Shown: one piece after another, positions 18,661 to 63,454 of the stretch
Layout of the letters: each line of letters starts with the position of its first letter
Numbering within the stretch: position 1 is the stretch's first letter
Assembly: GCA_023269675.1 (NCBI GenBank)
Contig: JAHFSX010000007.1
Coordinates: 1-64,000, forward strand
Reading direction: 5' to 3'
Length of the DNA stretch: 64,000 nt
From: Verrucomicrobiota bacterium
GTDB lineage: Bacteria > Verrucomicrobiota > Kiritimatiellia > RFP12 > UBA1067
Notes under the pieces: model-generated
What the model was told of the DNA's origin: nothing
The model's database searches: none
What the model saw: the letters and a program-made list of their open reading frames with translations, nothing else
Made by a program: the position numbers and the translations under genes

Positions 18661-19287
18661 ATGGGTCCTTTCGCGGGAAGTTGGGAGGACTATGTTAAGC
18701 CGGCCTGCAGGAATGGGGGCCGGCTTCAACACGGCTGAGCGAGCCGAGCTTCAAGACGGTGCGCGTGAGCAGGAGATAACGTATAAAATAGCCCGCGCCT
18801 TTGCAAGCGGGGGTCACGAACCGCTTCTCCTGCCCTTGCCCATCAGCAGGGGCCCGGTCAAGGGCTTTGGCCATCTCGACGAAATAATGCATAAATACGT
18901 TACACATATTAGCGGAAAGTGCGATTCACTGCCAACCTAATAATGGTGGCCGGACGTCATTGGGGTGTGATTCAACTTTGTTGAATCCACGCCCGAAGGA
19001 GGAGCTAAAATTTAGGAGTTGGGAGTTACCATACCATGAAGTGAACGGCTGATCGCAGGTTAGCCACCGCTGACTCCGCCAAGGTGCGGCCGATCCGGCC
19101 CGCGTCATGGCTGAGCGGCGCGTCTCCGGAAACAGACGCCGTGCCAGTTGAGGGTGGGCTTGACGTTCGGTGCGGGAGCTGTCACACTTCCATGAGAATG
19201 TGGGTTTGAGGCTGTCGGGACACGGTTGTCGCTGGCCCCGCGGCCGGCGACAGGGTTCGTGGATAGTGAGCGTGGATATGAGAGGCA
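18661..19287. other. Intergenic region with decayed dispersed repeat
   Basis: 625 bases between divergent genes. It contains the left end of the dispersed element (18963-19048, listed separately). The rest shows no gene; the stretch 19050-19287 has no recognisable structure. Confidence 0.5.
18963..19048 (+). repeat. MITE-like element, copy A (left end only)
   Basis: Left terminal hairpin at 18963-18994 (arms GGGTGTGATTCAAC and GTTGAAT-C-CACGCCC), followed by GAAGGAGGAGCTAAAATTT and a body matching copies B-D up to about 19048. Similarity then stops; no right end is visible, so the copy is truncated. Confidence 0.7.
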
Positions 19288-33981: not shown

Positions 33982-34677
33982 CTAAAGAAGTTCAAAGATT
34001 GCATAAACTGTGATGCGGAGTTTCTCGGCATCGGCACTTACCACGGCGGAACTCTCATCGACGATGACATTCTCGTCTTTGATCGTGCTGCCAATGGGTG
34101 GATACTCGTTGAGGCACAAGACGGGGCCGAGTGTGGCACCGAGAGCTGTCGCCATGGCGGCAGCCTTGTCTTTTGCAGCTAGGGTTGCCCTGAGCATCGT
34201 GTCCCGCGTTATCTTGTCTGTTCTTGAACAGTAAGTCGAATATTTGACTTTACCGTTGCCGTTACTCAGCAGGGCGAGCATATCGTTAAAAAGAGGGAGT
34301 TCTTTCTGCCGGAGTGTCAGGGTGCGTGTGACAATGAATTTCTTGGTGGGGTCACTGGCACCGCCTTCTTGGCCAGACGATGGGTCTTGAACCCTGATCA
34401 TGCCGAGTGACGCATCGCCGCCCTGTATGCCTTTTTTGACGCAAGCATCAATCAGGAGTTTCATCTCTTGTTCATTTGCTTCCTTGGCCGCAAGGAGAGT
34501 TTTTCCCGTACTTTCACGAGTGACCGTCCACAGGATGGCGTCAGACTGTATGTAACCAATCGCGCTACCGCTGACAGAGATTGTCCTGGGTTTCAGTTGC
34601 GGCTAGTTTGCCTCCGGGGCCGCCTTTGCGTTGAAAAGCGTGCTTACGATGAAAAGGGATACGAGAGTCCGCTTCAT
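33982..34677 (-). pseudogene. SIMPL-domain (DUF541) exported protein interrupted by an amber codon
   Basis: One continuous frame runs from an ATG at 34677 (AAGGAAATGAC upstream) to the stop at 33982, except for an in-frame TAG at 34605-34603. The 24 codons before TAG encode a clean signal peptide (MKRTLVSLFIVSTLFNAKA, then APEAN). The 46 codons after it, up to the next ATG at 34464, continue with RTISVSGSAIGY and VTRESTGKTLLAAKEANEQE, typical SIMPL/DUF541 sequence. The domain then runs to the end (VTRTLTLRQKELPLFNDMLA, ALGATLGPVLCLNE). As written the gene yields a 24-residue peptide. Restart at 34464 would lose the signal peptide and 46 residues. A sequencing error or a fresh nonsense mutation are the simple explanations. 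Confidence 0.8.
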
Positions 34678-34774
34678 GTCATTTCCTTAATCATGGTGTA
34701 ATTGAACTTAACTTTATTAAAATGCCACTACAACTGGGGACAAGCAAGCTCATTGTTAGAATTAGAGGTTGATA

Positions 34775-35060
34775 GGGTGTGATTCAACTTCGTTGAATCC
34801 ACACCCTAAGGAGGAGTTAGGATTTAGGAGTTTGGAGTTGCAATGCCGTGGCAGCGAACGTGTTCGTACCATGCTCGAGAGTCCGTGTTCGTGTCTTCAA
34901 AATGAGGTCAAACGTAGTGTCTCAAGAAACGTTTGCTCGCGGAAGGGTTCCTCCATGTCCAACGCCCTGTTTTCAGGGCCTTCTGCGCTTCCAACTCCTC
35001 GATCCTAACTCCTAAATTCTCCTGGGTGTGACTCAGTTTCAACGAAACTGAATCGCACCC
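34775..35060 (+). mobile_element. MITE-like element, copy B, complete with 9-bp target duplication
   Basis: 286 bp bounded by two hairpin ends: left 34775-34806 (GGGTGTGATTCAAC / GTTGAAT-C-CACACCC) and right 35024-35060 (GGGTGTGACTCAGTTTC / GAAACTGAATCGCACCC). The right end read on the other strand aligns with the left end for about 65 bases, including AGGAG-TTAGGAT words, so the element has long terminal inverted repeats. Both sides are flanked by AGGTTGATA (34766-34774 and 35061-35069), the direct repeat expected after transposition. It carries no open frame for a transposase. Confidence 0.75.
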
Positions 35061-35220
35061 AGGTTGATAGGGCGGGTGGTGTGCTTCGGCATAGGGGGGT
35101 CGAGAAGGCGTTTTGTGGGGCAGGAAGTGTCAAGGCTGGCGCTGCGCGGGCTAGCCGTAGGCGCATCACGTGGCACACGGACAAGACGCGGAATAATGGC
35201 AAATTTCGGCAACAGGGACA

Positions 35221-37124: not shown

Positions 37125-38081
37125 ATGACACGCGAAATGACTTTTACGATCCGTGAGAAGGACGCGGGCAAGACGCTGACCGCGTTTCTGACCTCGCGCT
37201 TCACGTATCACACCGATATGGAATGGGCCCGGCTGATCGCCGAAGGCCGGGTGCGCGTGAACGCCTGCCCCACCGTGCCCGAGGTGGCGCTGCGGACCGG
37301 CGACGTGCTGCGCTACGACGCGGCCGACATTCCCGAGCCGCCGGTGGACGAGGCGTACCGCGTCGTGTCGGATGACCCGCTGCTGCTGGTGGTGGACAAG
37401 TCCGGCAACCTGCCGTGCCACCCGGGCGGACGGTACTTCAACCACACGCTCTGGGCGCTGCTGAAAGAGCGTCACGGTTTGCAGGAGCCTGTGCTCATCA
37501 ACCGCATCGACCGCGAGACCTCGGGGCTGGTGATGATCGGCAAAACGCCCGCCGCGGCCCAAAACCTCTGGAAGCAGTTCGCCGCGCACACGGTGTCGAA
37601 GCGCTACACGGTCTTTGTGGAGGGCGAGTTCCCCGGGCGCCTCGAAACCACGGGGTGGCTCAGCCCCGACCGGGCTTCGTCGATCCGCAAGAAACGGCGC
37701 TTCACGCAGGCCGAGGCGGTCAGCGCCGCGCCGGACGAGGGCGCGGAGTGGGCCGAGACCGCGTTCGAGCGGGTGCGCGTGTGCGACGGCTTCAGCGTGG
37801 TGACCGCCCTGCCGCGCACCGGTCGGCTGCACCAGATCCGGGCGACCCTGCTCTCGCTGGGGTATCCCGTGGTGGGCGACAAGCTCTACGGCCTGGACGA
37901 GCGGCTGTTCCTCAAATTCTGCGAGGATGCGGTGACCGCCGAGGATTGGGCGCGGCTGCGCATGCGGCGGCAGGCGCTGCACGCCGACTACCTCAAGTTC
38001 ATCCATCCGCGTTTCGGGGCGCTCACGGAACTCACCGCGCCGCTGCCGGCCGACATGGCCGCGCTCCTGCCGGCGGAGTGA
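37125..38081 (+). CDS. RluA-family 23S rRNA pseudouridine synthase
   Basis: 318 residues; AAAGGTGATCG precedes the ATG. An S4-like N-terminal segment (residues 5-60, with GRVRVN) is followed by the RluA catalytic domain. The active-site motif reads INRIDRETSGLVM (normally HRLDRxTSG; His is replaced by Asn, the catalytic Asp is kept). RTGRLHQIRATLLSLGYPVVGDKLYG and LHADYLKFIHP are typical. It converts uridine to pseudouridine in rRNA; the exact site cannot be told. The TGA stop lies inside the left end of a dispersed element (copy C), so the C-terminus may have been set by that insertion. Confidence 0.9.
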   Translation: MTREMTFTIREKDAGKTLTAFLTSRFTYHTDMEWARLIAEGRVRVNACPTVPEVALRTGDVLRYDAADIPEPPVDEAYRVVSDDPLLLVVDKSGNLPCHPGGRYFNHTLWALLKERHGLQEPVLINRIDRETSGLVMIGKTPAAAQNLWKQFAAHTVSKRYTVFVEGEFPGRLETTGWLSPDRASSIRKKRRFTQAEAVSAAPDEGAEWAETAFERVRVCDGFSVVTALPRTGRLHQIRATLLSLGYPVVGDKLYGLDERLFLKFCEDAVTAEDWARLRMRRQALHADYLKFIHPRFGALTELTAPLPADMAALLPAE

Positions 38082-38424
38082 TTCAACGTCGTTGAATCCA
38101 CACCCGAAGGAGGCGTTAGGATTTAGCACGCCGCCCGCGGAGCGGGAACAAACGGCGGGGTAACTTTTTTGAACGAATAAGATTAAGATTAGGATTAAGA
38201 TTACGAGTAAGAAGGGTCTCTGATTCCTCTTAATCGTAATCGTACTCTTAATCGTAATCCGGTTGGAGTTATCGGCAAGGAGTTAGGAGTTGCAATGCCA
38301 TGGCAGCGAACGTGTTCGTGCCAGGCTCGGGAGTCCGTGTTCGTGTCTACAAAATGAGGTCACACGTATGGCCTCAAGAAACGGTTCTGCACGGAAGGGT
38401 TCCTCCTTGTCGAACGCCCTGTTT
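38078..38424 (+). repeat. MITE-like element, copy C (right end missing)
   Basis: The left hairpin is present but its first bases are changed (GTGATTCAAC / GTTGAAT-C-CACACCC, 38078-38106). The body matches copies B and D to about 38424. Relative to B it has an extra module of about 170 bases (about 38123-38290) with ATTAAGATTA-type words arranged as a long imperfect palindrome (38174-38260). No right terminal hairpin was found. Confidence 0.65.
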
Positions 38425-62738: not shown

Positions 62739-63454
62739 GGAAAACTCCCTTAAAGGTTGGTCAGACCGTCTCCAGCAACCGTCGGTCACGGTCACGCGGA
62801 GACGTGAAAAACAGTGTGAATCAGCACAAGCGTAGCAGACGAAGTGCGGGTTATCAAGCGCGCCGTGCCCGGAAACTTGCGCCGGGGTGTGAGTCGACTT
62901 TGTTGAATCCACACCCGAAGGAGGAGTTAGCATTTAGCCCGCCGCCCGCGGAGCGGTAACAAACGGCGGGGTAACTTCTTGAACGCTTGAGATTATGATT
63001 AAGATTATGATTATGATTACGATTGCGGGTAAGAAGGGTTCCTGATCCCTCCTGGTCCTGATCGTGTTCTTAATCCTAATCCGGTTGAAGTTATGGACGA
63101 GGAGTTCGGAGTTGCAAGGCCATGAAAGTGAACGTGCGAGCGCGATGCGCGAGAGGCCGTACCTGTGTCTTCAAAATGAAGTCATGCGTGGGCTTCCAAA
63201 AAATCGGTTCTTCGCGGAAGGATTGCTCCTTTTTGCAACGCCTTCTTTCGCGGCCTTTTGGCGCCACCCACTTCCAATTCCTAACTCCTGAAGTCTCCTT
63301 GGTGCGACCCAGTTTCAACGAAACAAATCGCACCCCATGCGCCGCGGCGATCGTTTTTTGCGCGGCAACGCACTTCCCGCCTTGACGTAGACGGCCAATG
63401 GGTCTACGATTTTTCCCTACCTGACCACTAGATGTTAACAAATAAGGGGTTTTC
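62739..63454. other. Intergenic region holding a complete MITE-like element
   Basis: 715 bases between divergent genes. Copy D of the dispersed element occupies 62885-63335 (listed separately). The remaining flanks would hold the promoters of both genes; no other feature was seen. Confidence 0.5.
62885..63335 (+). mobile_element. MITE-like element, copy D, complete with near-perfect 9-bp duplication
   Basis: 451 bp. Left hairpin 62885-62916 (GGGTGTGAGTCGAC ... GTTGAAT-C-CACACCC) and right hairpin 63301-63335 (GGTGCGA-CCC-AGTTTC / GAAAC-AAATCGCACC). Flanks are CTTGCGCCG (62876-62884) and CATGCGCCG (63336-63344), eight of nine equal. It carries the ATTAAGATTATG-word module also seen in copy C (about 62980-63095) and the subterminal AGGAGTTAG / CTAACTCCT inverted words. 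No transposase frame. Confidence 0.72.

Follow-up and report, generated by a model that had tools for sequence, protein, structure and literature searches.

A family of hairpin-ended MITEs in a Kiritimatiellia genome shares its ends and its distance from promoters with ISKra4 insertion sequences

TnGBS, ISLre2 and several ISKra4 elements are inserted upstream of sigma-A promoters, at a published distance of 13-17 bp from the junction between inverted repeat (IR) and genome (PMC3942029). The described group closest to the element studied here is ISKra4 (p-MULT 4, Mutator superfamily), which has the same GGG-starting IRs (up to 19/22 identical positions), the same 9-bp duplication and likewise a constant spacing from sigma-70 promoters, upstream of which it inserts. 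Our element, a MITE, differs from this group in that it has no transposase and its IRs are enlarged to full palindromes; its main promoter distance is 27 nt from the end, whereas 13-17 was reported for the ISKra4 group. TnGBS and ISLre2 (p-MULT 3) resemble it in that they too insert in an oriented manner in front of sigma-A promoters (PMC3942029), but they belong to a different transposase lineage. According to the consulted part of its description, MITEAba12 is also a bacterial MITE with 9-bp duplications and IRs matching those of an insertion sequence (ISAba12), but its ends are of the IS5 type (GGCTTTGTTGC), its length is 113 bp and no promoter spacing is reported in that part (PMC6382973). 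REP/BIME and other bacterial hairpin repeats share with our element the hairpin ends and the dispersed, extragenic occurrence. To our knowledge, these families have neither 9-bp duplications nor DDE-type IRs. Nezha, a cyanobacterial MITE which may be linked to ISKra4-like transposases, differs in sequence and host. Among described MITE families we are aware of no other that has inherited from Mutator-like transposases their geometry of promoter targeting, and a limited literature search turned up none.

The element and its family in the host genome

The window (the whole 64,000-nt stretch of DNA that was analysed) contains at 34775-35060 a 286-bp element flanked on both sides by the 9-bp target-site duplication AGGTTGATA (34766-34774 and 35061-35069). 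All parts of the element are given for the + strand. The left terminal hairpin GGGTGTGATTCAACTTCGTTGAATCCACACCC (34775-34806), whose first 22 nt represent the ISKra4-like IR, has a stem of 7+7 bp with a 1-nt bulge and a 3-nt loop. It is followed by the left subterminal repeats GGAGTTAGGA/TTTAGGAGTT (34810-34839), which are kept in relatives, a variable core with the conserved blocks GTGTCTTCA... and AACGCCCTGTTTTCAGGG (34840-34987), the right subterminal repeats, which are the inverse of the left set (34988-35020), and the right terminal hairpin (35024-35060), whose stem comprises up to 17 bp with one internal mismatch. The last 22 nt, read inward (GGGTGCGATTCAGTTTCGTTGA), are identical to the left IR at 19 of 22 positions. 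Inverted similarity of the two ends reaches through the GGAGTTAGGA-type subterminal repeats over approximately 65-70 nt with 74-76% identity. The predicted folding energy of the single-stranded DNA is -62.7 kcal/mol (z = -7.5; z = -8.7 for the RNA). Because the element is only 286 bp long, it cannot accommodate a transposase gene. An earlier interpretation made from the letters of the window (the sequence-only reading) had proposed a 286-bp element between exact copies of AGGTTGATA, with terminal inverted repeats of about 65 bases that are each a hairpin and with no transposase frame; its coordinates and all these features were borne out.

The host assembly (6.3 Mb, 85 contigs, 94.8% complete) is a draft and metagenome-assembled, like all genomes used. 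A first-pass search detected about 40 near-full copies. End-pattern searches combined with fetched loci yielded at least 55 two-ended copies after removal of two reversed duplicates, a number which, being derived from searches, is a lower bound. Their boundaries fall on identical bases. In 24 of the 55 the 9-bp repeat in the flanks was exact (mean with permuted flanks, 0.42), and ten more copies had a repeat with one mismatch (34/55 with at most one mismatch; permuted mean, 0.61), while flanking repeats of 8 or 10 nt were not enriched among the same copies. Since the two-ended copies carry 9-bp duplications far above the permuted mean, 34775-35060 belongs to a genuine MITE family, and the supposition of the sequence-only reading that it is a transposed, non-autonomous MITE-like element was correct: dozens of copies have constant ends and a target duplication of 9 bp, and the flanking 9-mers are duplicated in other copies as well. 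In a search for empty sites the joined flanks of ten copies were compared with the sole congeneric genome; only fragments of flanks matched, and the matches stopped before the junctions.

Most complete copies are 245-293 bp long, with two shorter ones of 177 and 221 bp. Longer copies reach about 430-475 bp; among them, a long class of about 430-450 bp has approximately 150 extra bases after position 53. The copy in locus L081 (501-928) has inside it a different insert that possesses inverted repeats of its own (CTAGAGATTTTATTT...TGTAGCCG...CGGCTACA...), which is probably a second, nested small mobile element. Conservation is highest in the ends and the subterminal repeats. Pairwise identity among copies averages 83% and does not exceed 96.7% even for the closest pair, so that, as judged from these values, the burst of transposition is not very recent. 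Four truncated copies with unrelated flanks (L033, L039, L047 and L050) all stop just short of the right hairpin, their last base being element position 249; judged by these copies, the hairpin base is a deletion hot spot.

In a search of 346 genomes of the class, the left hairpin was present in 12, the host accounting for 72 matches, and there was no match in the sole congener. The named genomes with the hairpin are mostly Kiritimatiellae MAGs. A relative in another family of the same order (L147) is flanked by an exact 9-bp duplication (CCGGGAACC). A complete relative, also with an exact 9-bp duplication (AATTCCGGG), was found in a MAG labelled Armatimonadota (L120, 6101-6377), which may be due to mis-binning or to horizontal transfer.

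Distance from promoters

Sigma-70-like -35/-10 pairs were scored outward from each element end with a simple E. coli-like matrix. At 27 nt to the left of the element, scores averaged +1.1 compared with a background of -4.69 (sd 0.46). A pair with the -35 box at exactly 27 nt was found in 20 of the 55 MITE copies (mean at other distances 0.45, maximum 6), and at the right end in 8 of 55, indicating that it is mostly the left end which faces the promoter. The same distance was seen in 9 of 20 further left ends, nearly all of them truncated copies that had played no part in finding the signal (0.18 at other distances), and in 12 of 35 flanks of ISKra4 insertion sequences of relatives (mean elsewhere 0.87). 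The number expected per position across the sets was 0.2-0.9. There is also a minor cluster of -35 boxes at 14-17 nt, which is similar to the published 13-17 and brings the box nearer by about one helical turn. Because the excess at 27 nt appears in the flanks of both, the MITE and the ISKra4 insertion sequences have one insertion geometry, in which 18 nt separate the 9-bp duplication from the -35 box.

The copy at 34775-35060 has this layout on its left side. A -35-like hexamer (TTGCTT, 34742-34747, - strand) starts 27 nt from the left end and 18 nt past the duplication, and is followed after a 17-nt spacer by a -10-like hexamer (CATTTT, 34719-34724, - strand), which faces the SIMPL gene. Read in this direction the order is TATCAACCT, 18 nt, TTGCTT, 17 nt, CATTTT, toward the ATG at 34677.

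With dozens of insertion sites of one genome aligned, the promoter distance is fixed to the single base pair, and the geometry common to insertion sequences and MITE makes the question of promoter recognition by these transposases directly testable. Insertion at this distance suggests a natural way of replacing the upstream regions of many genes while leaving the core promoter intact. Dozens of genes thereby appear to have acquired a spacer with hairpin ends immediately in front of them.

The fixed placement upstream of promoters could also be expected of a transcribed structured RNA or a regulatory cassette maintained by selection, with mobility being secondary. The strong fold, the core blocks conserved across genera and the 12 pairs of the consensus fold that are changed on both sides are in favour of such a function. 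However, the covariation term of the consensus fold is about zero (0.09 kcal/mol), no Rfam family scored above threshold, and there is free variation in length, as well as decay, among the copies. The placement itself is explained by transposase targeting, because ISKra4 insertion sequences show it too. We therefore regard selection for an RNA or a cassette as an improbable explanation of the family.

ISKra4-type ends and the probable mobilizing transposase

ISKra4 transposases (NF033572) are encoded in 89 of the 346 genomes of the class. Complete ISKra4 insertion sequences with GGG-starting IRs and exact 9-bp duplications were found at eight loci (L171, L182, L184, L192, L201, L206, L210 and L216). 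Two matches to the left end of the MITE lie directly after transposase stop codons, GGGTGTGATTCAAAATAGTTGA in genome G046 (fragment L257, 19/22) and GGGTGGGATTCAAGATAGTTGA in genome G021 (fragment L256, 18/22); the latter genome also carries MITE ends. Complete ISKra4 elements in three genomes (G274, G005 and G031) match the left end at 16-18 of 22 positions. The clade that shares its ends with the MITE consists of L194, L201 and L207 (45-54% identical to the first row of their comparison) and the fragments L256 and L257, with 16-19/22 overall. By comparison, the IR of the congeneric ISKra4 copy L193 (G001) is different (GGGCGCATGGCAG), and this copy was rejected as a match of the ends. L193 (contig C260) is flanked by near-perfect inverted repeats of about 180 bp, which include GAGGAGTTAGGGAGAATTTAGGAGTT, a sequence resembling the subterminal motif of the MITE. 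An 825-bp element in which no transposase frame was found adjoins an ISKra4 insertion sequence in genome G022 (L188, 2702-3526); its ends (GGGTGTGATTTTATTTCGTTGA) are 19/22 identical to those of the MITE.

When compared with 52 ISKra4 loci, the core of the MITE showed no similarity beyond the ends and the low-complexity motif GGAGTTAGG. The comparison thus gave no sign of a type I MITE, whose core would derive from ISKra4 by internal deletion. Since the core lacks similarity, only the ends are common to the MITE and the ISKra4 insertion sequences, and by this comparison the MITE resembles those of type II.

The profiles of ISKra4 (NF033572), UPF0236 (PF06782) and IS256 had no match in the host assembly (G000), nor did a profile of the end-sharing ISKra4 clade find a copy there. 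IS256, IS4/IS5 and UPF0236 profiles were also run on the MITE-bearing genomes, and the ends of candidates were compared. A 5.45-kb "pair of ends" on contig C85 (L041), considered as an autonomous element, turned out to be two solo hairpins around ordinary genes. The autonomous source, which is without a match in the host assembly, has probably been lost or was left unassembled. Because no such transposase was matched in the host, our claim is limited to ISKra4-type ends and targeting and does not extend to a local pair of MITE and transposase.

That the ISKra4 transposase was not found in the host would be accounted for if another DDE family (IS4/IS5-like, IS256 or an unrecognized transposase) mobilized the MITE, and 9-bp duplications occur also in IS903-like and other families, e.g. 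with MITEAba12/ISAba12 (PMC6382973). Against this, IS256 (PF00872) is absent from six MITE-bearing genomes, and the only DDE_Tnp_1 match of the host, rejected as the source, is IS1182-like with unrelated ends. The match to ISKra4 ends together with the common promoter distance makes another DDE family a very improbable source. The hairpin ends had reminded the sequence-only reading of hairpin-end transposons or REP-type systems. Spreading as REP/BIME-like pairs of extragenic palindromes by a RAYT or other HUH (Y1) transposase that uses hairpins of single-stranded DNA, with which true hairpins and the occurrence of solo hairpins would agree, is scarcely credible, because HUH transposition is not known to make target duplications such as the exact 9-bp ones of 24 copies, the 22-bp IR is shared with DDE elements, and the solo hairpins, which carry adjoining element sequence or lack a duplication, look like truncation products. 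REP/RAYT and IS200-type mobilization were ruled out by these target duplications; duplications, IRs and promoter distance point instead to a DDE transposase of the ISKra4 type.

Because of the 9-bp duplication, the 22-bp IRs and the promoter-distance fingerprint, the MITE very probably owes its transposition to a DDE transposase of the ISKra4 family (Mutator-like, p-MULT 4) acting in trans. This parentage and the targeting rule are what is added here to the earlier MITE interpretation. We infer that the transposase would bind the 22-bp IR GGGTGYGATTCARYTTCGTTGA at each end and that the element would be excised or copied, probably via a circular form such as that reported for related Mutator-type elements, and inserted at a staggered cut of 9 bp. 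The complex at the target would sit on a sigma-70 promoter, so that the -35 box would come to lie 27 nt from the end; contact of the protein with RNA polymerase or with the promoter may serve as the targeting cue.

Terminal hairpins and copies in the window

Several ISKra4 IRs contain a small dyad at the place that matches the MITE hairpin: TCAA-N5-TTGA in L194 and L201, TCAC-N5-GTGA in the left IR of L201, and TGTCA-TGACA in L213 and L185. Judged from this correspondence, the MITE hairpin appears to be an enlarged form of the ISKra4 dyad (TCAA-N5-TTGA), extended to a full palindrome, and would illustrate how hairpin-ended elements can arise from an ordinary inverted repeat. The stem is preserved in different genera, and at pair 6-27, which is T-A in the host and C-G in relatives, both bases have changed. 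In other genomes the right hairpin has another sequence and is likewise palindromic. An asymmetry is conserved: the left hairpin has a bulged base, the right one a C.A mismatch. While the two arms of the left hairpin vary equally (3.9% and 3.3%), the inner arm on the right varies more than the outer one (6.9% vs 3.2%), which argues that on this side the outer bases matter most. The preserved stem and the conserved asymmetry are suggestive of a role for the hairpins, but the covariation term of the consensus fold is, as stated above, about zero. It is conceivable, although we consider it rather unlikely, that the palindromic ends are functional, that their asymmetry marks outer and inner arm and biases orientation, and that the element, by landing 27 nt upstream of -35 boxes, serves dozens of promoters as a portable insulator or regulator.

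The family has four members in the window. In addition to the complete copy at 34775 there is a second complete copy, of the long class (62885-63335, + strand, 451 bp), with the extra segment of about 150 bp after position 53. Its flanks, CTTGCGCCG and CATGCGCCG, differ by one mismatch in the 9-mer, and it has a TTGATA -35 box at 27 nt. A truncated copy consisting of the left hairpin and the first approximately 86 nt (18963-19047, + strand) has a TTGGCA -35 box at the same distance.

The SIMPL (DUF541) frame next to the element (33982-34677) contains an in-frame TAG after residue 24, with the remainder open from an internal ATG. The sequence-only reading had called this gene broken, and the stop in the N-terminal part agrees with that description. 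The fourth member, a truncated long-class copy (38074-38424, + strand), starts within the final codons of a gene for a pseudouridine synthase (37125-38081). The stop of this gene (GAG TGA) lies inside the left terminus of the truncated MITE (38074-38081), and the element thus supplies the 3' end of the gene.
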